A stretch of 42,614 nucleotides of DNA from Flavobacteriales bacterium (GTDB lineage Bacteria > Bacteroidota > Bacteroidia > Flavobacteriales > BACL11). The notes beneath the pieces were generated by a model. It was given only the letters and a program-made list of their open reading frames with translations, ran no database searches and was not told the DNA's origin. Made by a program: the position numbers and the translations under genes. Within the stretch, counting starts at the first letter, position 1, and every line of letters starts with the position of its first letter. The stretch lies in NCBI GenBank assembly GCA_002705205.1, contig PAHP01000012.1, forward strand, positions 1 to 42,614. The letters are read 5' to 3'. Below, in pieces: positions 20,213 to 42,614 of the stretch.

Positions 20213-21508
20213 ATGAAACATATCCTCCTTTTTTTAATGATAGCCTTTTCAACGCAAGGGTTCTCACAGTGCGATGCTCCATCTACAATTTTTGCATCAA
20301 ACGTTAATTATTATAATGCTGAAGTAAACTGGAATACAACTTCAGGAACATATTTTTACAGAATTAGATTTAAAATAATTGGGGCTCCCTCTTGGTCATA
20401 TAAAAATAATATTGACTCTACTCTAAACAAACTGATTCTTATTGATTTACTTCCATTAAGCGATTATATTTGGCAAATAAAGTCTTATTGCGATACCACT
20501 AACACAAACACATCAAGCTGGTCAACAACAGACACATTTACAACTATTACAAATACATGTCCAAATACAAATGTACTTTTTACAAGTAATATTAACTTTA
20601 ACAACGCAGTAGCTAATTGGGATACTATAAATGGCGCAAATAGATATAAAATACGGTATAAAATTTTAGGCACAACTTTATGGTCATATCTAGGTCCTGT
20701 ATACCACCCATTAGACAGTATTACAATTCCAGTATTACAGCAGAATACATCCTATGAATGGCAAGTGCTTACATTTCATGATAGTACTAATTTATTGGGA
20801 TCCCTATGGTCAGAAAGCGATACCTTTACAACGACTTCCTTTGTTTATTCTCCTTTTAATCCATTAGTAACAAATACATTAAGTAGTCTAGAATGCAGTT
20901 CTCCATCTGAATTTTCTTTAACTGTTACTCAGTCTGCCTATGAACCTGATATTGGCACAAGTAGAATAACATCAGATGGTGGCTATTTTGACATTTCATC
21001 CATAAGTATGGGGGATTCTGTTGGCTTTGCTATTATGACAACAACCACGCAAAACATAACCGCAGTATTAAGAGCAGGACTAATTGCGGGGCAAAATTAT
21101 GCTATTATTAATTCATATGACAGCACAGGCTCTTTAATAGGGTTCTTTACGATTGAAAATGATAATGGAGGAATAAAAGTAACAACCACGACTCCAAATG
21201 ACAATAATGACTATACTAGCGGCTATATCAGTGAGGTCTACTTGACTAATCTTTTTATTAATCCTCCAAATTCAGGGCCATTACATTTCTTTATCGATAT
21301 TGAATCTGAGTTAAGTGATCAAATATATGATACTGATACGGTTCAAATATGGTGTAATACAAATAACATCATAGAACAAAAATATGAAAAAGAAATTCTT
21401 GAACTATACGATCTATTAGGAAGAAAAAGACAGAACAAACAAAAAAATAAACCCATCTTGTATATGTATGATGACGGAACCGTTCAAAGAAAAATAATTA
21501 TAGAGTAA
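20213..21508 (+). CDS. Secreted fibronectin type III protein with short T9SS-like C-terminal tail
   Basis: Probable surface or secreted protein exported by the type IX system. The 431-residue product has a signal peptide (MKHILLFLMIAFSTQGFSQ). Two fibronectin III-like domains follow, at about residues 20-112 and 114-208; each begins with Cys and ends with a DTFTT motif, and they are tandem repeats of each other. A region at about 225-385 with no family I recognise comes next, then a C-terminal tail (about 392-431) with ELYDLLGRKRQNKQ, YMYDDGTV and RKIIIE. That tail resembles a T9SS type A sorting signal but lacks the usual Y-P-N-P opening. Monocistronic: own promoter upstream and a hairpin downstream. 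Confidence 0.75.
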   Translation: MKHILLFLMIAFSTQGFSQCDAPSTIFASNVNYYNAEVNWNTTSGTYFYRIRFKIIGAPSWSYKNNIDSTLNKLILIDLLPLSDYIWQIKSYCDTTNTNTSSWSTTDTFTTITNTCPNTNVLFTSNINFNNAVANWDTINGANRYKIRYKILGTTLWSYLGPVYHPLDSITIPVLQQNTSYEWQVLTFHDSTNLLGSLWSESDTFTTTSFVYSPFNPLVTNTLSSLECSSPSEFSLTVTQSAYEPDIGTSRITSDGGYFDISSISMGDSVGFAIMTTTTQNITAVLRAGLIAGQNYAIINSYDSTGSLIGFFTIENDNGGIKVTTTTPNDNNDYTSGYISEVYLTNLFINPPNSGPLHFFIDIESELSDQIYDTDTVQIWCNTNNIIEQKYEKEILELYDLLGRKRQNKQKNKPILYMYDDGTVQRKIIIE

Positions 21509-21535: not shown

Positions 21536-21542
21536 AAATTAG

Positions 21543-21616
21543 TGGCCTAGAGAGGATTCGAACCCCCAACCCTCAGAGCCGAAATCTGATATTCTATCCA
21601 GTTGAACTACTAGGCC
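21543..21616 (-). tRNA. tRNA-Arg (anticodon UCG)
   Basis: A complete 74-nt cloverleaf on the minus strand. The acceptor stem GGCCTAG pairs with CTAGGCC. The D arm is GTTC/GAAT, and the anticodon stem TCAGA/TCTGA encloses the loop TTTCGGC, giving anticodon UCG, which reads CGA (Arg). The T arm has the standard TTCGAAT loop. The discriminator base is A; CCA is not encoded (CTA follows) and must be added after transcription. It has its own promoter upstream and a strong hairpin terminator downstream. Confidence 0.96.
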
Positions 21617-21704: not shown

Positions 21705-23912
21705 ATGAAAAAGCTCCTTTTACTTTTATTCCCTTTCTTCATGCAAGCTCAAGATGTAGCTATTGGGCATTGGAAGGATTATTTATCATACAATTCTGCC
21801 TCCTATATTACTGAGGCTGAAAATAAAATATATTGCGTAGCAAATGGGGGCTTGTTCTATATAAATAAAAATGATGAGACAATCAACAGACTCTCAAAGA
21901 TAACAGGCCTTTCTGATGTAGGTATTAAACAAGTTGCTTATTCTTATGAACTAGATATTGTAATAATTACCTATAAAAACTGTAATGTTGATCTTTTAAA
22001 GAACAATCACATTATAAATATATCAGACATAAAACGCAAAGAAATTACAGGCATCAAGTCAATAAATAATATTACAATTAGAAAAAATATTGCATACCTA
22101 TCAACATCTATTGGGTTAATTCTAGTTGATTTAGAAAATGAAGAAATAAAAGACACTTATAACTTGGGAGATGCAAGTAGTGCCTATAAAATAAACGGAT
22201 GTGCATTCTTAGGAGACTCAATAATTACAGCAACATCTCAAGGGTTATTTTATGCTAATGTCAATGATCCAAATTTATCTGATTATAGTAGCTGGTCTGT
22301 TTTCCAAGCTCAGACAAATGAAGAAACATATGACAATATTGTTTATGGAAATGGAAATATTAATGGAGATTATTGGTATGAAACAAGAAGCGTCAACTAT
22401 AACAACAGCACTCTAGTAAGAACTAAATTTGACAGAGTTGAAATCACTAAAGATGATGGAGCATATATCGAGTTAACGCACTTAAAATTTGAAAATATAT
22501 TATACGCCTTAAATGATGACGAAAATATTATTTGGGTAGCGGACTCTGTAAATGGCCTTTTGAAATTTATAAATTTAGACTATCAAGAACGTTTTATTCC
22601 TTCAGGGCCCGTTCGAAATGAAATTTATAGCTTAGAATACGAAGAAAATAAACTATATCAATGCCATGGAGGACATGCTAATTTTGGCTCAAATTCCTTA
22701 ATTAATAATGGCGTATCAATAAAAAACAATTATGATGATTGGACTAATTATGATAGATATAAATTAGGCAATGCCAGAGATATATTAGAGGTCGCTGTTA
22801 ATAATGGAGTTGAGTATTATGCCTCGTGGTATCATGGAATCCCTCAAATGAAAGATGGAGAGCTAGTAATAAAATATGATTATCAAAACACTAATGGAGT
22901 GCTAGATACCTGTTGGTATTCAAATAATAGAATTCGTATTTCAGATATCAAATTTGACTCTGAAGGAAATATGTGGGCTCTAAGCTCAGAGGTAAACCAT
23001 CCATTAGTGCTGAAAACCAAAGATAATAATTGGTATGCATACAGCATGAATCAAAATCAAGTTAGCCTATTCTTTGATGATTTACTAATTGATAGTTATA
23101 ATCAGAAATGGGGAGTATTAGGAAGAGGAAATGGATTATTTGTTTATGATGATAACAGAACTTTTGATAATCAAAATGATGATCAATATAAATTATTAAA
23201 TACTAATATCGGATATGGAAATTTACCCTCAAATCAAACTTATTGTTTAGCTGAAGACTTAGATGGAGAAATCTGGATAGGGACAGATAAAGGGATCACT
23301 GTTTTTTATGATCCAGCAGCAATATTCTCGGGCTATAATTTTGATGCCCAACAAATTCTTATAACAGAAGGAGATTACGGCCAGTATCTTTTAAGTGAAG
23401 AAAGGGTTAAGTGTATCGCTATTGATGGAGCAAATAGAAAATGGATTGGCACAGAAAAATCAGGAATCTTCTTGCTTTCTGAAGATGGTCTACAGCAAAT
23501 TTTACACTTTACAGAAGATAATAGCCCACTATACTCTAACAACATTGTAGATATTGCTATAAATCATGAAAATGGAGAAGTTTTTATTGGCACGAGTAAA
23601 GGGTTAATCTCATACAGATCAGATGCGACAATTGGAGCAGTGAAGCAAGGAAAAACTCATGTATTTCCAAATCCTGTTAAAGAAAATTATAATGGAGTCA
23701 TTACAATAAGTAAATTAGTAAAAAATGCTACTGTGAAGATAACTGATATAGGTGGTAATTTAGTTTTTGAAACTATTGCAAATGGCGGGCAAGCGATATG
23801 GGACGGAAAAAATAAAAATAAAACACGAGTCTCAACTGGCGTTTATTTAGTCTTCAGTACGGATATATATGGAGAGGAGAAAGTTGTAAGCAAAATTCTA
23901 TTTATTAACTAA
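21705..23912 (+). CDS. porZ: T9SS attachment-complex protein PorZ-like (beta-propeller, type A CTD)
   Basis: PorZ works at the cell surface with PorU, PorV and PorQ in attaching T9SS cargo to the outer membrane; in Porphyromonas it is linked to delivery of anionic LPS. The 735-residue product has a short signal peptide (MKKLLLLLFPFFMQA), then GHWKDYLSYNSA, a regular two-component-type propeller (repeats such as NKIYCVANGGLFYI, ITGLSDVGIKQVAY, GEIWIGTDKGITVFY, NRKWIGTEKSGIFLL, GEVFIGTSKGLISY), and a C-terminal type A sorting domain starting HVFPNPVKENYNG and ending VSKILFIN. Length is close to P. gingivalis PorZ. It overlaps recO by one base (TAATG). Confidence 0.82.
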   Translation: MKKLLLLLFPFFMQAQDVAIGHWKDYLSYNSASYITEAENKIYCVANGGLFYINKNDETINRLSKITGLSDVGIKQVAYSYELDIVIITYKNCNVDLLKNNHIINISDIKRKEITGIKSINNITIRKNIAYLSTSIGLILVDLENEEIKDTYNLGDASSAYKINGCAFLGDSIITATSQGLFYANVNDPNLSDYSSWSVFQAQTNEETYDNIVYGNGNINGDYWYETRSVNYNNSTLVRTKFDRVEITKDDGAYIELTHLKFENILYALNDDENIIWVADSVNGLLKFINLDYQERFIPSGPVRNEIYSLEYEENKLYQCHGGHANFGSNSLINNGVSIKNNYDDWTNYDRYKLGNARDILEVAVNNGVEYYASWYHGIPQMKDGELVIKYDYQNTNGVLDTCWYSNNRIRISDIKFDSEGNMWALSSEVNHPLVLKTKDNNWYAYSMNQNQVSLFFDDLLIDSYNQKWGVLGRGNGLFVYDDNRTFDNQNDDQYKLLNTNIGYGNLPSNQTYCLAEDLDGEIWIGTDKGITVFYDPAAIFSGYNFDAQQILITEGDYGQYLLSEERVKCIAIDGANRKWIGTEKSGIFLLSEDGLQQILHFTEDNSPLYSNNIVDIAINHENGEVFIGTSKGLISYRSDATIGAVKQGKTHVFPNPVKENYNGVITISKLVKNATVKITDIGGNLVFETIANGGQAIWDGKNKNKTRVSTGVYLVFSTDIYGEEKVVSKILFIN

Positions 23913-26928: not shown

Positions 26929-29448
26929 ATGTATAGACTATTATTTATTCTTTTTGGTTCATTTTTATCACTTTCCTTGTCATCTCAAGTCTGGCAAGAT
27001 GATTTACTAAAAACAAAGCCTAAGCCAACAACAGCTGATAAAGTTGAAGCTTTTGAAGCTTATAGGGAAATACACCCTTATATTAAAGGAAACGGTTATA
27101 AGCCATACGCTCGTGAATTAGACTTTGTAACTCAAAGAATAAGTAACAACACTGCCTTTAAGGCTAATGCCTTATATATTGAATGGAAAAAAGAACAAGA
27201 AAAACATGCTTTTTCTAAAACAAAATCTACAGCAAATTGGGTGGCTAAAGGCCCAATTAATCCTCCTATTATTTTATCTAATGGGAAAAACAGAGGAAAT
27301 GGAAGGGTAAATTGTATTGCTTTTGATCCAATTAACTCTGATATAATTTGGGTTGGCTCTCCTGCTGGAGGACTATGGAAGTCAACTGATGGAGGAGATA
27401 GCTGGAGTACAAATACTGATGATCTTCCGGTACTTGGAGTATCTCATATTGCTATTGATCCTAGTAACACTCAAACAATGTATATTGTAACTGGAGACGC
27501 TAATGCTACTGATACATATAGCATTGGCATTCTTAAATCTACTGATGGAGGAGGAACTTGGAATACTACGGGATTAAGCTACACTGTTGAGCAAGAAGAA
27601 ACAGTAAATAAAGTTATTATTAACCCTGAGTTTACTGATAGTTTATATGCCGTTACAAATTCAAATATTATGATAAGTGCAGACGGAGGTAATAGCTGGA
27701 ATATCGCTGGCAGTATCGGAAGATGGCGTGATATCGAATTAAAGCCAAATAATAGAAATGTATTATATGCTGTTAAGCAATCAAGCGGTTCAAGCAATGT
27801 TTACCGAACAACAGATGGTGGTGCAAATTGGACTATTATCGATAATGGAATTAGTGGCACTAGATACCGACCTTTAATTGCTGTTACGCCAGACAATCCT
27901 GAAGTTATTTATGCTCTTTTTACAGATGCACAATACAATTTTCATGGGATATATAAATCTTCTGATTCTGGAGATAATTGGATTTTGCAATCAGACAGTC
28001 CAAATATCTTAGGAAGAAATACAGATGGCTCATCAACAGGAAATGGTCAAGCATGGTATGATTTAAGTCTAGGAGTCGCTACAAATAATGAAAACTTGGT
28101 CTATGTAGGGGCGATTAATCTATGGCGATCAGATGATTCTGGAAATAATTGGGATATTGATGCGAGTAGTGGAAGTAGCTCTAATTATAGCTATATGCAT
28201 GTAGATCAGCATGCTTTTGAATTCAATCCTCATACTCATGTTGCTTATGCTGGAAATGATGGGGGGTTTTACAAATATAGAAATGATCTGAACTCCTGGG
28301 AAGAAAAATCAGATGGCCTTGAAATATCACAATTTTATAAATTAGGCTTATCAAGATCAAATCCAACTAGATTAGTCACAGGAGCTCAAGATAATGGAAC
28401 TGAAATGCTAACTGGAAATATTTGGGATGCAATTAGAGGTGCAGATGGCATGGAGTGTGCAATTGATCATTATGATGAAGATATTATTTATTCATCATCT
28501 CAATATGGTGGACTTAAAAAAAGCTACAATGGAGGTGGTAATTGGGATAATATAAAGCCTGTAAGCTATGATGGAGCTTGGGTAACTCCATACGCTATAC
28601 ATGCAAATAATAACAACTTAATTGTTGTTGGTTATGATGAAGTTTATAGATCAACAACTGGGGGTGCTGTTTGGGACTCTGTGTCTTACAATGTAAGTAA
28701 CGGACAATCTCTTCGAACAATTGCACTAGCTCCTTCTGATGAAGATTATATCTATGCTGCATCATATAGTTGGATTAAACTAACCAAAGATGCGGGAAAT
28801 ACATGGACTAATATAAAATGGGGGCTGCCAAACTATAGTATTACTGATATAACAGTGGCCAATAATAATGCGGATAGAGCTTGGGTTACTTTCTCTGATT
28901 ATAATAATATTCACAAGGTTTATGAAACAACTGATGCTGGCAATACTTGGTTTAATATCTCTGGTAATAATTTGCCAGGGCTTCCGGTCAATTGTATTAT
29001 ACATCAAGGCGGGGCCAATGATGATTTATATATAGGGACAGATGTTGGGGTCTATTATAAAAACAATACTCTTTCTGAATGGATCCCTTTTAACGATGGG
29101 CTTCCTAATGTTATTGTAAAAGAACTAGAGATACATTATGCTAATGGGACAATCAGTGCGGCAACGTTTGGTAGGGGTGTTTGGGAAAGCCCTTTAAATA
29201 CTCTATCCACAAATATTAATGATGTAAAACCCTTTTCTTTCTCAATTTATCCTAACCCAGCACAAAATCAAATAACAATCAACTCAAATTCTCAAAATAT
29301 TACAACTACTATTCTAGCTCTTACTGGTCAGAAAATAATTACTACAACATCAAATGTTATCAGTACTCGTAATTTAAAGTCAGGATGCTATATTGTTGAG
29401 GTAAACAGTAATAATATTATTAAAAGAGAGGTGTTAATTATAAGATAG
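26929..29448 (+). CDS. BNR-repeat (sortilin/WD40-like propeller) protein with T9SS type A sorting domain
   Basis: Probable T9SS-secreted surface protein; enzymatic role unknown. The 839-residue product has a signal peptide (MYRLLFILFGSFLSLSLSS) and about ten Asp-box (BNR) motifs, including STDGGDSWS, STDGGGTWN, SADGGNSWN, TTDGGANWT, SSDSGDNWI, SDDSGNNWD, TKDAGNTWT and TTDAGNTWF, as in VPS10/sortilin-like and glycosyl hydrolase propellers. The C-terminal ~75 residues form a type A sorting domain (FSIYPNPAQNQITIN, TILALTGQKI, LKSGCYIVEV, REVLIIR). It begins 3 bp after the TonB receptor and overlaps the convergent DUF4837 gene by 11 bp. Confidence 0.88.
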   Translation: MYRLLFILFGSFLSLSLSSQVWQDDLLKTKPKPTTADKVEAFEAYREIHPYIKGNGYKPYARELDFVTQRISNNTAFKANALYIEWKKEQEKHAFSKTKSTANWVAKGPINPPIILSNGKNRGNGRVNCIAFDPINSDIIWVGSPAGGLWKSTDGGDSWSTNTDDLPVLGVSHIAIDPSNTQTMYIVTGDANATDTYSIGILKSTDGGGTWNTTGLSYTVEQEETVNKVIINPEFTDSLYAVTNSNIMISADGGNSWNIAGSIGRWRDIELKPNNRNVLYAVKQSSGSSNVYRTTDGGANWTIIDNGISGTRYRPLIAVTPDNPEVIYALFTDAQYNFHGIYKSSDSGDNWILQSDSPNILGRNTDGSSTGNGQAWYDLSLGVATNNENLVYVGAINLWRSDDSGNNWDIDASSGSSSNYSYMHVDQHAFEFNPHTHVAYAGNDGGFYKYRNDLNSWEEKSDGLEISQFYKLGLSRSNPTRLVTGAQDNGTEMLTGNIWDAIRGADGMECAIDHYDEDIIYSSSQYGGLKKSYNGGGNWDNIKPVSYDGAWVTPYAIHANNNNLIVVGYDEVYRSTTGGAVWDSVSYNVSNGQSLRTIALAPSDEDYIYAASYSWIKLTKDAGNTWTNIKWGLPNYSITDITVANNNADRAWVTFSDYNNIHKVYETTDAGNTWFNISGNNLPGLPVNCIIHQGGANDDLYIGTDVGVYYKNNTLSEWIPFNDGLPNVIVKELEIHYANGTISAATFGRGVWESPLNTLSTNINDVKPFSFSIYPNPAQNQITINSNSQNITTTILALTGQKIITTTSNVISTRNLKSGCYIVEVNSNNIIKREVLIIR

Positions 29449-37051: not shown

Positions 37052-38437
37052 TATTACCTTAACAATTTCAACTTTTCTCTCTAACATTGCCTCTAAACTA
37101 TAAACTGAATCTATTATATTATTGGGGTTGTCACTTGTGACTTCCAAAGATTTGCTCTCTCCTAAGGGCAATTCTAACACTGAAAGCTGGCCAGAATTTA
37201 GATACTTTACAAGTGTTGAGTTTTGATAAATTGCGATAAAATTAATAACACTTTGAATTCGTCTTTGAGATAAATTAATATTATATCCGAAATTATGTAA
37301 GGGGCTTGCATATCCCCTAAGTTGCAATTCAATATTTTTTCCTAAGCTTAATTCTTTAGTTAAGTTGTCTAATAACTGTATAAGCCTATTATAATTGTAC
37401 TTCAAATTATTCTCAAAAAACTCAATTGAACTCTCATTCTGATTATTATATTCATCTTGTATTTTAAAGTATGAAACATAGGATTCTTTATAGTTAACTT
37501 GTGTTGTTAGCTTCATTGTGGAACAATCAGGCTCGTCATTATGAAAATAAAGAGTTATCATTTTGAACTTTTCCCAATTATATTGCTCTGTAATAGTATC
37601 AGGGCTCAAGATATTAAACGAGAAAATATCATTACAACAATACTCATTAGTTTTATATCTAGCTCCTTTTCTATTCGATGAAAAATATCCATTTTTTTTA
37701 TCATAAAAAACCAAATACATTTCATCCTCTTTTGAATTAAGAGCTGTTACATTTTCTGCTTTATTCCATAGGTTTAATCTGCCCGCAGAACTATAAATAT
37801 CAAACCCTCCCAAACCCTTCTCTCTATTAGAAGAAAAATATAGTTTATTCTCAAAATCATTAAAAAAGGGTGTAATCTCATCTGAAGAAGTATTAATACT
37901 TGAGCCTGCATTAATTGGGACTCCAAAATTTCCATTAACATCAATGATACTTAGCCAAATATCTAGGCCCCCAAATCCTCCTTTACGATCTGAAACAAAG
38001 TATAAAACTTTTTGTTTTTTATGATTAGTTAAATGTCCTTGAATATTTTTATTGCCAGCATTATTTATTGTATTAATTTTTAAGAAATTACCTTTAGAAG
38101 AAAAAATTAACTTGCAATTATTATCTAGGTCACATAAAGAAAAAACGGCTTCATTATTATTCAAAAAACAAATATCTCCAGTATTTAATTTTTCAGAATT
38201 AAATTCGGAGTACCTTGCTCTTTTCCACTTATTTCTTATTTTACTGGCTAAATAAATTGATGACTGATAATTGTTTTCTTCAGAAATTACAGTGTAATAC
38301 GCTGAAGAATCATTAAATTGACAAAAATTTAAATCAGCATCGTAAGTGTTAATCGGACTATCTAAGTGTTCAATATGTGCCGCAAATTGCGAGAATCCAA
38401 AAAGTGGCAGTAAAAAGAAAAAGCATAATCTGTTCAT
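37040..38437 (-). CDS. PD40-repeat, OmpA-like C-terminal protein (T9SS-associated)
   Basis: Envelope protein of the type found beside PorP/SprF genes in Bacteroidota. The 465-residue product has a signal peptide (MNRLCFFFLLPLFGFSQ). WD40-like PD40 repeats are seen at about 150-280 (LYFVSDRKGGFGGLDIWLS, LYFSSNREKGLGGFDIYSS, GYFSSNRKGARYKTNEY). The OmpA-like part is at about 370-465 (IELQLRGYASPLHNFGYNIN, LSQRRIQSVINF). The peptidoglycan-binding Asp of classical OmpA domains (in G-x-T-D) is replaced by Ala-Ser, while the Arg is kept. ATG 38437 is chosen over the earlier in-frame start at 38497 because the signal peptide begins there and it overlaps the PorP/SprF stop by one base. Confidence 0.88.
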   Translation of the reverse strand: MNRLCFFFLLPLFGFSQFAAHIEHLDSPINTYDADLNFCQFNDSSAYYTVISEENNYQSSIYLASKIRNKWKRARYSEFNSEKLNTGDICFLNNNEAVFSLCDLDNNCKLIFSSKGNFLKINTINNAGNKNIQGHLTNHKKQKVLYFVSDRKGGFGGLDIWLSIIDVNGNFGVPINAGSSINTSSDEITPFFNDFENKLYFSSNREKGLGGFDIYSSAGRLNLWNKAENVTALNSKEDEMYLVFYDKKNGYFSSNRKGARYKTNEYCCNDIFSFNILSPDTITEQYNWEKFKMITLYFHNDEPDCSTMKLTTQVNYKESYVSYFKIQDEYNNQNESSIEFFENNLKYNYNRLIQLLDNLTKELSLGKNIELQLRGYASPLHNFGYNINLSQRRIQSVINFIAIYQNSTLVKYLNSGQLSVLELPLGESKSLEVTSDNPNNIIDSVYSLEAMLERKVEIVKVILKK

Positions 38438-39396
38438 TATAAATATTTTGGACAAATATTTATTTCTGTTTTCTTGATTAATTTTGAAATACTCCATTCA
38501 TATGCTAAAGAGACTTCAAACCCCCCTTTATAATCACTAGCGGCATTTAAAGATGAAATATTTATATCATAAGAAACCATAGCGTCAAAATTATCAATCT
38601 TTATTCCAAATTCTGGAATTATTGCATCATTCTTTCTGTTAAACAGTCCAGCCCTCAAAACTATAGCTTCTGAAGAGGGTTTATTCCGCAAATAATTAAC
38701 CCTTATGCCAGATATAAACTCATTAAATCCGTCTTGTTCTGAATAATATAATGTTGGTTTAATTTGTAACTTGCTATTAAAATAATAAATTACTGACGCG
38801 TGTATTTTAGAGTTTATCGGAAGTTCAATATTTTTGCTTCCTAGTAATGTTTGATTTGGCTTATTCAAATGAAATAATGATAGTCCAGAAATAATAGTCA
38901 TGGATGAATTAAAATCGTGTTCATAAGCCCCCCCAATTGCTACATCAAAGAAGTCTATAGTTTTATTCGGAATGTTTTCAACATCATTAAAAACTAAATT
39001 TGAATAATCTATTGATCTTTGATATGCTCCAAAAAGTATCCCACAGGATATATTATTCCTATTGTTAACTTTTAATTTATATGAAATTGAAGATGTGATA
39101 CCATTAGTTTTAAAGTGTGAGTCTCCAGCTATATCATCTAACAACTGAACACCAAAAGAACAATTTTTAAAGATATTTTTTGCTTCCAATGAAATTGAAA
39201 ATGTATTAAAGGGGACGCTTACACTTTGCCATTGTGACCTTCTTTGAAGCTGAAGCTTATAATCCCCATCTTGAAAACCAATTAGCGCTGGATTAATTAA
39301 TGATTTAGTCTGATTAAACTGAGAGAAATGAACATCTTGAGAAAACATCTTATAACAAAAAAATGCAAAAAATAATGTTGTTATAAAACGTATCAT
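38437..39396 (-). CDS. PorP/SprF family type IX secretion membrane protein
   Basis: Outer-membrane beta-barrel partner of large T9SS cargo, as SprF is for SprB in Flavobacterium johnsoniae. The 319-residue product starts with a signal peptide (MIRFITTLFFAFFCYKMFSQ), then the family motif QDVHFSQFNQTKSLINPALI and the RRSQWQSV block near residue 52, followed by alternating strands (FGVQLLDDIAGDSHF, ISYKLKVNNRNNI, VAIGGAYEHDF) and the C-terminal KGGFEVSLAYEWSI. It lies between the type B cargo gene upstream (4-bp overlap) and the OmpA-like gene downstream (one-base overlap), the usual order for this trio. SprF paralogs are many, so no specific gene name is given. Confidence 0.92.
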   Translation of the reverse strand: MIRFITTLFFAFFCYKMFSQDVHFSQFNQTKSLINPALIGFQDGDYKLQLQRRSQWQSVSVPFNTFSISLEAKNIFKNCSFGVQLLDDIAGDSHFKTNGITSSISYKLKVNNRNNISCGILFGAYQRSIDYSNLVFNDVENIPNKTIDFFDVAIGGAYEHDFNSSMTIISGLSLFHLNKPNQTLLGSKNIELPINSKIHASVIYYFNSKLQIKPTLYYSEQDGFNEFISGIRVNYLRNKPSSEAIVLRAGLFNRKNDAIIPEFGIKIDNFDAMVSYDINISSLNAASDYKGGFEVSLAYEWSISKLIKKTEINICPKYL

Positions 39397-42300
39397 CTAA
39401 TTAAAGTAATATTTCCTTTATGAAAAAGTTTTTTAGCTCCAATACAGCCAATTTCCAAATAAAAATCAAATACCTGAGGGGGGAGGAGCTCTCCTCTAAA
39501 GCTTCCGTCCCATTCACTATTAGCAATGTCTTCTGATGCATATACTTTTTGACCAAGTCTATTAAAAATCTCAAGCTTAAAATCTGTTATTATTTGATAC
39601 TTGTCATTAATAAAATATTTATCATTTACACCATCTCCATTAGGAGAAAAGGCCGTGGGTATTTTTATGTTTTTATCATCACAAAAAACATTCTTTAGAG
39701 TAATAAAAACAGAGTCTTCTACAGTACAGCCAAAATCGTTACTTATTTCGAATATTTGCCACCCTTCAATATTTACTTCAATAAAGCGGTTGTATATCGA
39801 ATCTCCCGCAATAATGGTTAGCAATATATTTTCTCCTTGATAAGCTACAGTGTCTGAAATCCATAAACTATCAATATGAGAATAAGGATAAACACTAACA
39901 AAAATGGAATCACTTAGAATACACAAATTCGAATTTAGGACTTCAACTGAATACCACCTGGAAGAATCAGGACTGTCAACTAATAATGATGTGGTTTCTG
40001 GAAATCCAGTCCAAACATAAGATATAATTGGTAATAATGGATTATTATTTTCTACCTCAATTAAAACTGAATCACCTTCACAAATATCATTAGAAATCAT
40101 ATTAATATTCACACTCTCAGAAGTAATGATGACGCTGTCTATTTGTTCACAAACTCCATTCTTAACTTTTATGTAAAATGTGCCTGCAGAAAAAACAACT
40201 AACGAATCTAGCAACCCTAAAGTATCTGTAAAATTATGATTTGAGGACCATAAAACTGAATTCACATCTAACGAGAATGTTGCAAATATTTGAGTTGAAT
40301 CATTACAAAATGTTAAACTAGAGCTTACTTGTAATTGAAGATTGTTATTGCTGGAAACATTAACGCTATCTACTTTCTCACAATTGCCATCAGACACCTT
40401 AACATAGTACATTCCTATTGAAGAAATGTTTACTAAATTAGTGGCACTTAATATATTTGAAAAATCTTCTGTATTAGACCAAATTATAGAATTCACATTA
40501 TTGGAAAAGGTAGCCTCTAAAATGAGTGGAGAGCTGCAAAAAGTAGTGTCTTCTCCTGCATCTAACTGTAAAGAAGAAACATTAACTTTTTGGAATAAAG
40601 TATCCGAACAGCTACCATTAGAAATAATAAGTTGGTATTGAGTATCTGAATTAGCATCGCAAAAAGGATTAGATGAATTGGAAGTGCTCAAGTTTATTAC
40701 AGGACTCCAAGCGTATGTAATCGTAGGATTATTCAATGGCAATAATCCAATCTGTATTTTTTCATCAGGACATTTAATAATCTCTTGTATGGTGTCGGAA
40801 GAGTTAGATAAAATATATATATCTTTGATAATTGTATCTGAAACATTACAAGCACCAATATCACTAGCTATAAGCATAACCTCATATATTCCCCCTTGCG
40901 AATAATTATGTGTTGGATTTATGTTGGTAGAGGTTGATCCATCTCCAAAATCCCAAATATAAGTTACATTATTACTTGAAAAGGTTAAATTTTGGAAATT
41001 AATACTTGTATCGCAGCTAACCCAAGGAGCTTCAAAATCTACAACAACCATAGAAAAATCAAAATTAAACTTAAACACTCCATTATTACAATTTATACTA
41101 TTATTTAATGGAGATACCGCTCCCGGATTTGGCTCAATAGGAAAGTCTGAATTTCCTCCACATCCAGCACAAACTGACTGATAAATAACTCCTTTTTTAT
41201 CAAATCTACTAGTCCCTCCGTCAACATGCTCATTGCTTTGACTTCCTCCAAAATACGTAGCATAAATATTTGAGCTTAAATTTTTATCTAGCACCATTAT
41301 ATAAAAATCATTTCCATCTGTTGTTTGCTGATAAGCGCTGTCAGTAATTGACAAGTTTAAAGTTGATAGGGGGCCTCCCGCTACATTTGATCCCCACCCA
41401 GAAAAATATATCTTATCACAAACATCCACTAAAAAGGCTGTTGGAGAAATATCTGGAGTTCCTTTTCCTGTCCCTACAACCGTTGAGCGCAATACATTAC
41501 TCAGATCTTCACTTAATACTGTTATAAACTGCCCTCCATTTGGAACAAAATAAGCTGCATTATGAACTAATTGAGTGCCTAAACTCTCTGTTTGACCAAA
41601 AATGTAAACAGAATTTGTGTTCCCTATCTCTACAAAATAAGATTGATCATACTTATTAGTTCCAAAATATGATGATGAAATAATTTGATTTCCACTTGAA
41701 GAGACTTTAGTGATAAATGCATCTGCTTTTGACGAATCCTGATGTGTAGTTTGATATGCATTTATGGTCACTGGGAAGTCAGTAGAATTTGTTCCTCCAG
41801 TTACATAAATATCATCATTCTGATCTAACGCCAGAGAGTAAATAGCATCATCATTGCTCCCTCCAAGATAAGTGCTCCAAATAATTGTTGTAAGCTGATT
41901 ATCCATCTTAATTATACAACCTTCTTGACTGCCTTTTGATGAAGACTGAAAGCTACCTAGAGTGGGGAAATCAGTTGACCTTGTACAGGTAGCAATATAA
42001 ATATTATTGTTTTTATCAATATCTATCTCACCTCTTACCTCGTCAGCATAATTATATTTTAGCTTTGATGCTGTATTTAACCCATCATTTCCTGTTCCTC
42101 CAATAAACGTTGATGCTAACAAATTACCTCCACTAGCACTTAATCTACTTACAAAAATATCAGATCCATAAGGGAAGGAAACTCCGATTCCAGAAGGAGA
42201 GAATGATGGCCCTCCAATAAAAGCTCGTTGATAAGATGAAGGTGTAGTTGGAAAATCGGAAGAACCAGTAGTTCCATATATAAATAACTCATTAGCAGAA

Positions 42301-42614
42301 TTAACAATCATTGAATGAGGAAGCTCATCTAGCCCGCCACCTAAATAAGTTGAATAAATCCTATGTGTTCCTGTGGTATCATATTTAGTTATTGCTAAAT
42401 CTGTTCCTCCAGAGCTATTTGCATAATTAAGCTGATAAGCTCCAATTGTAGTTGGATAGCCTGTCCCAAATGAGGTGCTTCCTGCATATAAAAAGCCAGA
42501 ATTATCATATGTTGCTGTATAGCCAAAATTATCAGTGGTGCTCCCTGAATAGGTTGAAAATTCTAATACAGGGTCAATTATTAATTCATATCTAGAATCA
42601 TACCCATTAGGAAA
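39393..42614 (-). CDS. Large SBBP/PKD-repeat protein with T9SS type B (gliding-associated) C-terminal domain, 5' end outside window
   Basis: Likely exported, adhesin-like T9SS cargo. The frame is open from the window edge (1073 residues visible); the ATG at 42311 is internal, since the upstream 101 codons continue the same repeats (ELIIDPVLEFSTYSG, GYTATYDNSGFLYAGSTS). SBBP-type beta repeats fill about residues 1-420 (DIYVTGGTNSTDFPV and similar). A PKD domain lies about 523-610 (VTYIWDFGDGSTSTN). Two tandem 74-residue Cys-paired modules follow, and the type B domain is at about 975-1073 (KIPTAFSPNGDGVNDKYF, FNRLGQKVYAS, WDGSFRGE). It overlaps the PorP/SprF gene by 4 bp. Confidence 0.92.
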   Translation of the reverse strand, partial: FPNGYDSRYELIIDPVLEFSTYSGSTTDNFGYTATYDNSGFLYAGSTSFGTGYPTTIGAYQLNYANSSGGTDLAITKYDTTGTHRIYSTYLGGGLDELPHSMIVNSANELFIYGTTGSSDFPTTPSSYQRAFIGGPSFSPSGIGVSFPYGSDIFVSRLSASGGNLLASTFIGGTGNDGLNTASKLKYNYADEVRGEIDIDKNNNIYIATCTRSTDFPTLGSFQSSSKGSQEGCIIKMDNQLTTIIWSTYLGGSNDDAIYSLALDQNDDIYVTGGTNSTDFPVTINAYQTTHQDSSKADAFITKVSSSGNQIISSSYFGTNKYDQSYFVEIGNTNSVYIFGQTESLGTQLVHNAAYFVPNGGQFITVLSEDLSNVLRSTVVGTGKGTPDISPTAFLVDVCDKIYFSGWGSNVAGGPLSTLNLSITDSAYQQTTDGNDFYIMVLDKNLSSNIYATYFGGSQSNEHVDGGTSRFDKKGVIYQSVCAGCGGNSDFPIEPNPGAVSPLNNSINCNNGVFKFNFDFSMVVVDFEAPWVSCDTSINFQNLTFSSNNVTYIWDFGDGSTSTNINPTHNYSQGGIYEVMLIASDIGACNVSDTIIKDIYILSNSSDTIQEIIKCPDEKIQIGLLPLNNPTITYAWSPVINLSTSNSSNPFCDANSDTQYQLIISNGSCSDTLFQKVNVSSLQLDAGEDTTFCSSPLILEATFSNNVNSIIWSNTEDFSNILSATNLVNISSIGMYYVKVSDGNCEKVDSVNVSSNNNLQLQVSSSLTFCNDSTQIFATFSLDVNSVLWSSNHNFTDTLGLLDSLVVFSAGTFYIKVKNGVCEQIDSVIITSESVNINMISNDICEGDSVLIEVENNNPLLPIISYVWTGFPETTSLLVDSPDSSRWYSVEVLNSNLCILSDSIFVSVYPYSHIDSLWISDTVAYQGENILLTIIAGDSIYNRFIEVNIEGWQIFEISNDFGCTVEDSVFITLKNVFCDDKNIKIPTAFSPNGDGVNDKYFINDKYQIITDFKLEIFNRLGQKVYASEDIANSEWDGSFRGELLPPQVFDFYLEIGCIGAKKLFHKGNITLIR
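40119..40340 (-). repeat. Second 74-residue module of the type B protein
   Basis: Exactly 222 nt, encoding a module that opens LQLQVSSSLTFC and ends EQIDSVIITS. It aligns without gaps to the module at 40350-40571, with roughly 29 of 74 residues identical by eye, including the two Cys (module positions 12 and 64). Confidence 0.85.
40350..40571 (-). repeat. First 74-residue module of the type B protein
   Basis: Exactly 222 nt, encoding a module that opens LQLDAGEDTTFC and ends EKVDSVNVSS. It is separated from the next module by three Asn codons. The Cys pair and Trp31 suggest an immunoglobulin-like fold closed by a disulfide (inference). Confidence 0.85.

Follow-up and report, generated by a model that had tools for sequence, protein, structure and literature searches.

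A stripped-down relative of the standard T9SS sorting tag in many uncultured marine bacteria, which most likely sends enzymes out by that system

The window analysed here, by which we mean the whole stretch of 42,614 nucleotides of contig PAHP01000012.1 (Flavobacteriales bacterium, assembly GCA_002705205.1), contains at 20213–21508 on the forward strand the gene of a tail-bearing, probably secreted protein of 431 amino acids. Its translation starts with MKHILLFLMIAFSTQGFSQ and ends with ...NTNNIIEQKYEKEILELYDLLGRKRQNKQKNKPILYMYDDGTVQRKIIIE. A Sec signal peptide (MKHILLFLMIAFSTQGFS, 20213–20266, forward strand) was predicted by both the loose and the strict form of our heuristic and is followed by Q, in line with the Q rule of the Bacteroidota (PMC5837995, in its available part). 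The N-terminal half carries weak Fn3 repeats. Fn3 alone was found at E < 0.001 when the whole protein was scanned against Pfam (23.2 bits versus a cut-off of 25), and the NCBIfam scan of the whole protein gave no family at E ≤ 10. Residues 385–431 make up a short T9SS-like C-terminal domain of 47 aa (21365–21505, forward strand), the N-terminal limit of which is presumed from a cleavage-like N-N-I sequence. Within this domain, motif B (ILELYDLLGRK, 21395–21427, forward strand) aligns to type A columns 23–38 and provides the first predicted strand (residues 16–21 of the tail taken as a 52-mer) and the turn. A terminal hairpin (ILYMYDDGTVQRKIIIE, 21455–21505, forward strand) occupies the position of motifs D and E but lacks the GxY of the former, as judged from the profile alignment, the structure model and the motif count. 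The initial annotation had pointed to an unusual tail that keeps the YDLLGRK turn, ends in YMYDDGTV-x-x-KIIIE and lacks the Y-P-N-P opening, and the translation agrees with it on each of these features, the ending being YMYDDGTV-QR-KIIIE. Its limits for the tail, 21389–21508, had to be revised; the conserved unit begins about 8 residues earlier, and we place it at ~21365–21505, limits that were set by homologues and by the weakly conserved cleavage-like motif.

A tRNA-Arg gene (tcg, 21542–21616, reverse strand) lies between the tail gene and the T9SS gene porZ (21705–23912, forward strand; NF052228, 611.5 bits). Further on, at 26929–29448 on the forward strand, a BNR/sortilin-like protein is encoded. 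Both PorZ and the BNR protein had been said to carry the usual type A sorting domain and serve here for comparison. For the BNR protein this is correct (TIGR04183, 31.0 bits versus a cut-off of 23; PF18962, 40.3 versus 27), whereas the domain of PorZ is marginal, with 22.5 bits versus 23 for TIGR04183 in the whole protein and 25.4 bits in the genome search. The window tail, as a 52-mer, scored 16.1 bits against TIGR04183 and falls below the curated cut-off of 23. At 38437–42311 on the reverse strand, the window also encodes a protein with a type B sorting domain (TIGR04131, 48.2 bits), immediately next to a PorP-like gene (169.6 bits), which is a standard pair of type B cargo and shuttle.

Searching the source genome with the 50-residue tail returned 27 matches (E from 1e-28 to 0.4), 25 of which look like genuine tails; L020, among those kept, is a fragment of 41 aa preceded by a stop. 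Two matches were dropped, L033 having no tail in its frame and L035 lying inside the gene of L017. The genome carries 29 type A domains over the cut-off as well, none of which coincides with a tail. Another of the 25, a protein of 95 residues (L034; G000:C14, tail at 64063–64125), has a signal peptide and the terminal YIYDDGT hairpin only, without the motif B turn, and is possibly a natural minimal form or a decayed gene.

Among the relatives, 29 of 40 genomes (source included) gave a tail match at E ≤ 1. The tail profile was matched at E ≤ 0.001 by 69 of the 196 genomes of the order sample, again counting the source, and these belong to its own family f1 (31 genomes), f7 (12), f9 (10), f15 (12) and f8 (4), with 1 to at least 34 matches per genome. 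The class sample yielded 22 matching genomes out of 295 (source included). Five of them belong to family f36 and match mostly by the motif B part alone (mostly profile positions 4–33, E about 1e-4; one match reaches position 47 at 7.5e-7); these may be the ordinary motif B of type A domains. The others have 1 to 8 copies, the eight being found in G204. Only 3 of 296 genomes in the phylum sample matched, including the source and G569, where the motif B part alone is covered. By record title, the best 80 of 274 relatives are mostly Flavobacteriales bacterium, several with marine sample names, and some are Cryomorphaceae bacterium, one of these BACL11; a few titles read differently (Polaribacter, Chryseobacterium gleum, Neomarinimicrobiota). 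The initial annotation had mentioned similar YDDGTV-KIIIE endings in marine flavobacterial proteins; the tail recurs in Flavobacteriales, many of them marine by record title.

Fifty tails gave the majority consensus K-x-L-x-K-x-x-D-x-L-G-R-E-T-x(4)-N-x-P-L-F-Y-I-Y-D-D-G-T-V-E-K-R-I-I-I-E, in fuller form K-E-L-L-K-V-T-D-L-L-G-R-E-T..N-x-P-L-F-Y-I-Y-D-D-G-T-V-E-K-R-I-I-I-E. Residues were counted over 151 distinct tails, all of which had been selected as search matches. An aspartate precedes the motif B turn in 138 of them, a YDDG-like turn is present in 150, a basic residue of motif E (K/R/Q) stands at the VEK position in 149, and 120 end in D or E. The motif B turn is kept together with its glycine (D-x-L-G-R), and the G[RKQN] anchor is missing from no tail of the set, a constancy that is partly by construction because the glycine served as the alignment anchor. 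The tyrosine of motif B is rare (6/151). At the place of motif D, neither GxY nor G.[YN][IVLF] was found in any of the 151 tails. Anywhere within the last 32 residues, GxY/F occurs in 4 of 151 tails versus 24 of 26 type A domains of the source genome (one pattern), the looser [GS]x[YF] in 6 of 151 versus 26 of 26, and GxY or GxN, the form known from P. intermedia, in 2 of 151 tails. In 100 of the 151 tails, a cleavage-like [TSPGAN][GSATN][IV] motif precedes the motif B glycine by 14–22 residues; three equally long upstream windows contain it in 16, 29 and 14 of the 151. In the 100 tails that have it, the distance from this presumptive cut site to the C-terminus is 43–52 aa.

In the ORFs scanned, the tail is confined to the C-terminus and goes with signal peptides. 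Of 306 stop-to-stop ORFs with a minimum length of 150 aa, drawn from the window and 77 loci (L064–L140), 95 matched the tail HMM, all of them ending no more than 12 residues from the C-terminus; 6 further ORFs have type A ends, and none has both tails. Signal peptides were scored by a simple heuristic on the first ATG and not by SignalP. The heuristic was positive for 82 of the 95 tail ORFs and for all 6 type A ORFs, compared with 67 of 205 others, controls that include spurious ORFs (tail versus others, p = 6e-19); with the Q rule, the counts were 73/95, 5/6 and 29/205. Similarly, 23 of 24 tested tail proteins of the source genome were positive at one of the first methionines, and so were all 19 complete tail proteins from distant lineages.

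Of the 25 tail proteins in the source genome, 23 were scanned for passenger domains against Pfam, NCBIfam or both. Two M14 zinc carboxypeptidases, two M43 peptidases, a C70 peptidase, a PI-PLC, a PHB depolymerase-like esterase, a PETase-like hydrolase, two choice-of-anchor B proteins, LRR and SprB repeats were found, and five of the scanned proteins had no match (L010, L015, L022 and L025 in Pfam, L023 in NCBIfam). Such passengers are typical T9SS cargo. The PETase-like hydrolase (L017, G000:C8:246343–246489; PF12740, 144.3 bits) bears the short tail and is therefore probably secreted or surface-bound.

When 50 tails were aligned by hhalign to 24 type A domains from the source genome, the probability was 74% and E 2.7e-5 (one comparison); after trimming, the probability was 80%. 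The reversed tail profile scored 9.2 versus 26.9 for the real one. Taken alone, the N-terminal half of the tail aligned to type A columns 23–38 (motif B) and the C-terminal half to columns 62–74 (the last strand or strands); about 15 columns are deleted between the two aligned halves. Both halves are colinear with type A, and our reading is accordingly that the tail is a type A domain from which motifs A and C are missing. Apart from TIGR04183, no NCBIfam family matched more than one of 50 tails, and the type B model TIGR04131 matched neither the window protein nor the 50 tails. AlphaFold2 (57 rows) built three strands (16–21, 35–40 and 45–49) at moderate confidence (pLDDT 66, pTM 0.43), and the fold matches of this model to T9SS CTDs are weak. 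Foldseek gave no match under E 0.001, the CTD of a T9SS cargo (8gl8_D) ranking fifth at E 2.1. HBP35 came first in VIA-align (Z 3.7), the T9SS-bound RemA CTD fourth (Z 2.7) and FspA-CTD scored 2.0; these values are all weak and the list consists mostly of unrelated folds. Against the sequences of solved structures, the tail profile reached a best E of 0.46 with no convincing match; the type A profile finds the T9SS-bound CTDs 8glk and 8glj.

The choice-of-anchor B proteins carry either tail. A search over 60 genomes gave more than 90 matches, from which 30 loci were taken, one per genome; L202 could not be read and was left out, and two loci from the source genome, L143 and L162, were included in addition. 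Of the resulting 31 proteins, 20 end in the short tail (15–72 bits with the tail model, 2–17 with the type A model) and 11 in a type A domain (20–68 bits with the type A model, at most 6 with the tail model). On the tree of the passenger domain the type of tail changes at least four times, and at least two of these changes are forced by well supported branches; the tree was calculated with LG+G4 without a mixture, and the program warns of meeting long branches. The exchange on one passenger suggests that both tails do the same job there.

The genes of SprA, PorV (G000:C16:20437–21483, besides two PorV-like paralogues), PorU and PorZ are all present in the source genome. PorU was detected in 63 of 69 tail-matching genomes of the order sample versus 84 of 127 others (p = 6e-5, relatedness ignored). 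The six tail-matching genomes without PorU all have SprA, and five of them are under 85% complete. The initial annotation had considered a co-occurrence of the tail with T9SS genes and with signal peptides; we observe both, the former in that PorU or SprA is present in each of the 69 genomes, the latter in the excess of signal peptides among tail ORFs described above. At class level, SprA was found in 286 of 295 genomes (22/22 tail-matching versus 264/273, p = 1), and the test has no power because T9SS is almost universal there. The phylum sample, with 3 matches in 296 genomes, was left out of co-occurrence testing. Many class genomes have two SprA matches, some of which are perhaps split genes.

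Computation thus gave homology to type A, a C-terminal position, signal peptides, exchange of passengers and occurrence with T9SS genes. We consider it highly probable that the tail descends from type A and works as a short sorting domain for T9SS, whose bearers are exported by Sec, cross the outer membrane through the SprA translocon and are most likely handled by PorV and PorU. Secretion itself, binding to PorV, and cleavage by PorU and its site are what we infer. Sec would export the protein by means of its signal peptide, and the SprA translocon would carry it across the outer membrane upon recognition of the C-terminal 47 residues. These residues are predicted to form a three-stranded sheet, composed of the motif B strand and turn (D-x-x-G-R) and the last two strands, with the lysine of motif E among their residues. 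Type A has a seven-stranded Ig-like sandwich; its remaining strands, with motifs A and C, would be gone from the tail, and in place of the motif D GxY there would now be the conserved hairpin F-Y-I-Y-D-D-G-T/S-V-E-K. PorV most likely shuttles the protein, and PorU most likely cuts near T/N-S/N-I, about 46–48 residues from the end.

Published experiments bear on this model. According to a review, GFP can be exported with no more than the final 22 residues of HBP35 (motifs D and E), and the motif E lysines are needed (PMC10202324, available part). According to the accessible sections of PMC11285876, work on RgpB and PorU has found the motif B loop (L-β3-β4) and the C-terminal strand (E) relevant or essential; exchange of the motif B glycine for arginine hindered secretion, whereas a proline in its place, introduced in earlier work, made no significant difference. 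The tail keeps just the motif B and the C-terminal/E regions. P. intermedia is described in the available text of PMC11969387 as having 48 short CTDs of 43–55 aa with a predicted three-stranded sheet beside 32 long ones; the short ones are predicted to use PorV. The retention of the motif B and E regions, together with this precedent, is why we favour a short T9SS domain with PorV as its shuttle and PorU as the protease that removes it. One finding speaks against the model: a point change in a P. gingivalis CTD, which upsets the contact between the CTD and the domain before it, was found to block secretion (PMC11285876, same sections), and loss of most of the type A fold would therefore call for compensation. 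CTDs of one species can also be incompatible with the system of another (PMC11285876, same sections).

The initial annotation had gone further and proposed a separate sorting-signal class, perhaps used by a different shuttle protein. Its first half stands, as the tail is a separate, recurrent class that is missed by the type A models. Its second half found no support: the tail is homologous to type A and keeps both of the experimentally relevant motifs. The corresponding alternative, a T9SS signal class with its own PorV-like or PorP-like barrel as shuttle and a destination unlike that of type A cargo, is in our estimate unlikely. It would account for a conservation that is very unlike type A, with GxY nearly absent and YDDG[TS]VEK conserved, and candidate barrels exist: genomes of the own family mostly have PorV plus one to three PorV-like paralogues, and the source genome has 6 PorP-like genes. 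PorV-like paralogues are, however, also found in tail-free families (G025, G026, G028, G031 and G037). In the source genome (20 contigs, 73% complete), no tail gene has a PorV-like gene closer than 14 kb or a PorP-like gene closer than 17 kb, whereas cargo and shuttle genes of the type B pair in the window are neighbours. These observations make a different shuttle less likely. The short CTDs that serve as precedent are modelled on PorV (PMC11969387, available text), and the passengers exchange with type A. PorV-family proteins occur in 39 of the 40 genomes of the relatives set. G034 and G039, which have no convincing PorV, have no convincing tail either; G002, a 76% complete draft, has 8 tail matches and PorV-like paralogues only, with no full PorV. 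Stated in full, the idea is that T9SS has a signal of a fourth type: its short CTD would have exchanged the GxY of motif D for a YDDG hairpin of its own and would be read by a dedicated PorV-like barrel, which gives about half of the type A-like cargo a different fate. We regard this as unlikely; were it true, several marine lineages with small genomes would sort their cargo differently, for instance by release versus anchoring.

That the tail has nothing to do with T9SS, and instead acts as a signal for outer-membrane anchoring, assembly or quality control or as a folding cap, appears very improbable. The confidence of the structure is moderate, the profile match is remote, and one of 300 column shuffles comes near the real score (25.0 versus 26.9). 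Yet none of the 300 shuffles (mean 9.5) scores as high as the real tail profile, both halves of which are colinear with type A. The same passenger is found with the tail and with type A, all 69 tail-matching genomes of the order sample have PorU or SprA, and both motifs relevant to T9SS are kept (PMC11285876, same sections). Finally, it is hardly credible that the tail is an ordinary, poorly conserved type A domain overlooked by the standard models: TIGR04183 does give sub-threshold matches at E ≤ 10 to 7 of 50 single tails (best E 0.008, the window's own), and three related choice-of-anchor B tails, L184, L186 and L191, are degenerate (15–20 bits with the tail model, 4–7 with the type A model), but the two profiles separate on the choice-of-anchor B proteins, Por_Secre_tail (PF18962) matched 0 of 50 tails in the Pfam scan, motifs A and C are missing and the glycine of motif D nearly always, and the tail has 47 aa versus about 72 and a strong consensus of its own.

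Type A-derived as we take it to be, the tail shares with the type A CTD (TIGR04183, PF18962) a D-x-x-G-R turn in motif B followed by a basic last strand, similar passengers, a signal peptide and the exact C-terminal position. It differs by the absence of Y-P-N-P, of motif C and nearly always of GxY, by being about 25 residues shorter, and by scores below the model cut-offs. Type B CTDs (TIGR04131, PF13585; partner PorP/SprF) are likewise C-terminal T9SS signals. They have about 90 residues and their genes are usually linked to a PorP-like gene (PMC10202324, available part), whereas tail genes of the source genome have no linked PorP-like gene (at least 17 kb away). The type C CTD of F. johnsoniae ChiA (cl41395) is also a T9SS CTD outside types A and B and by its description has about 100 residues (PMC10202324, available part).

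The closest known counterparts are the short CTDs of P. intermedia, with which the marine tails were compared by published description and not by alignment (PMC11969387, available text). Lengths would agree (43–55 aa there, an implied 43–52 in the marine tails), and both kinds occur beside long CTDs in one genome. For both, a three-stranded sheet is predicted, which in terms of the long CTD consists of its strands 3, 6 and 7; both keep motifs B and E and have Ile (or Val) two residues after the likely cut. In P. intermedia, however, the glycines of motifs B and D are described as absolutely conserved and the motif B tyrosine as very strongly conserved; motif D there is GxY or GxN, seen at that place in 0 of 151 marine tails, in which the motif B tyrosine is also rare and the last residue mostly Asp or Glu. 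Because the motif D glycine is missing, we regard the marine tail as a variant distinct from the short CTDs of P. intermedia. The two could have one origin or have arisen by parallel shortening. Cleavage and C-terminal glycosylation were documented by mass spectrometry in P. intermedia (PMC11969387, available text), whereas a cut in the marine tails is predicted from their sequence.

In the literature that we searched, which was chiefly of the non-subscription kind, no paper contained YDDGTVEK, FYIYDDG or related strings and no description of the tail was found. Within the same literature, short CTDs were linked to T9SS for P. intermedia only, and the terms T9SS, marine, metagenome-assembled and C-terminal secretion signal were combined nowhere. 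The available text of PMC11969387 names P. intermedia as the only species reported with both CTD lengths, a claim that would need widening. Annotation by TIGR04183 and PF18962 overlooks the tail proteins. In the source genome, where the tails number about 25 and the type A domains 29, close to half of the probable type A-like T9SS cargo thereby escapes notice. The overlooked cargo of these uncultured ocean bacteria includes proteases, esterases and a PETase-like enzyme. The tail also represents a second, sequence-distinct minimal CTD that keeps the motif B turn and the last strands only, and the minimal recognition by SprA/PorV becomes directly testable with it.

Some genomes deviate in their T9SS genes. 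PorU was not found at E ≤ 1e-20 in G033, G348, G613 and G619, all of family f10 and 81–99% complete; G033 and G348 carry choice-of-anchor B, and G033 also has PorV. These genomes may have a T9SS without a sortase, or one with a divergent sortase. G027 (f4) and G035 (f12) likewise have PorV and no PorU match. Three PorU-like genes lie in tandem in a genome of family f2 (G609:C45:21531–32657), and G661 encodes, besides a standard SprA, a second, divergent SprA-like protein in a frame of 2261 aa (C6:39473–45061).
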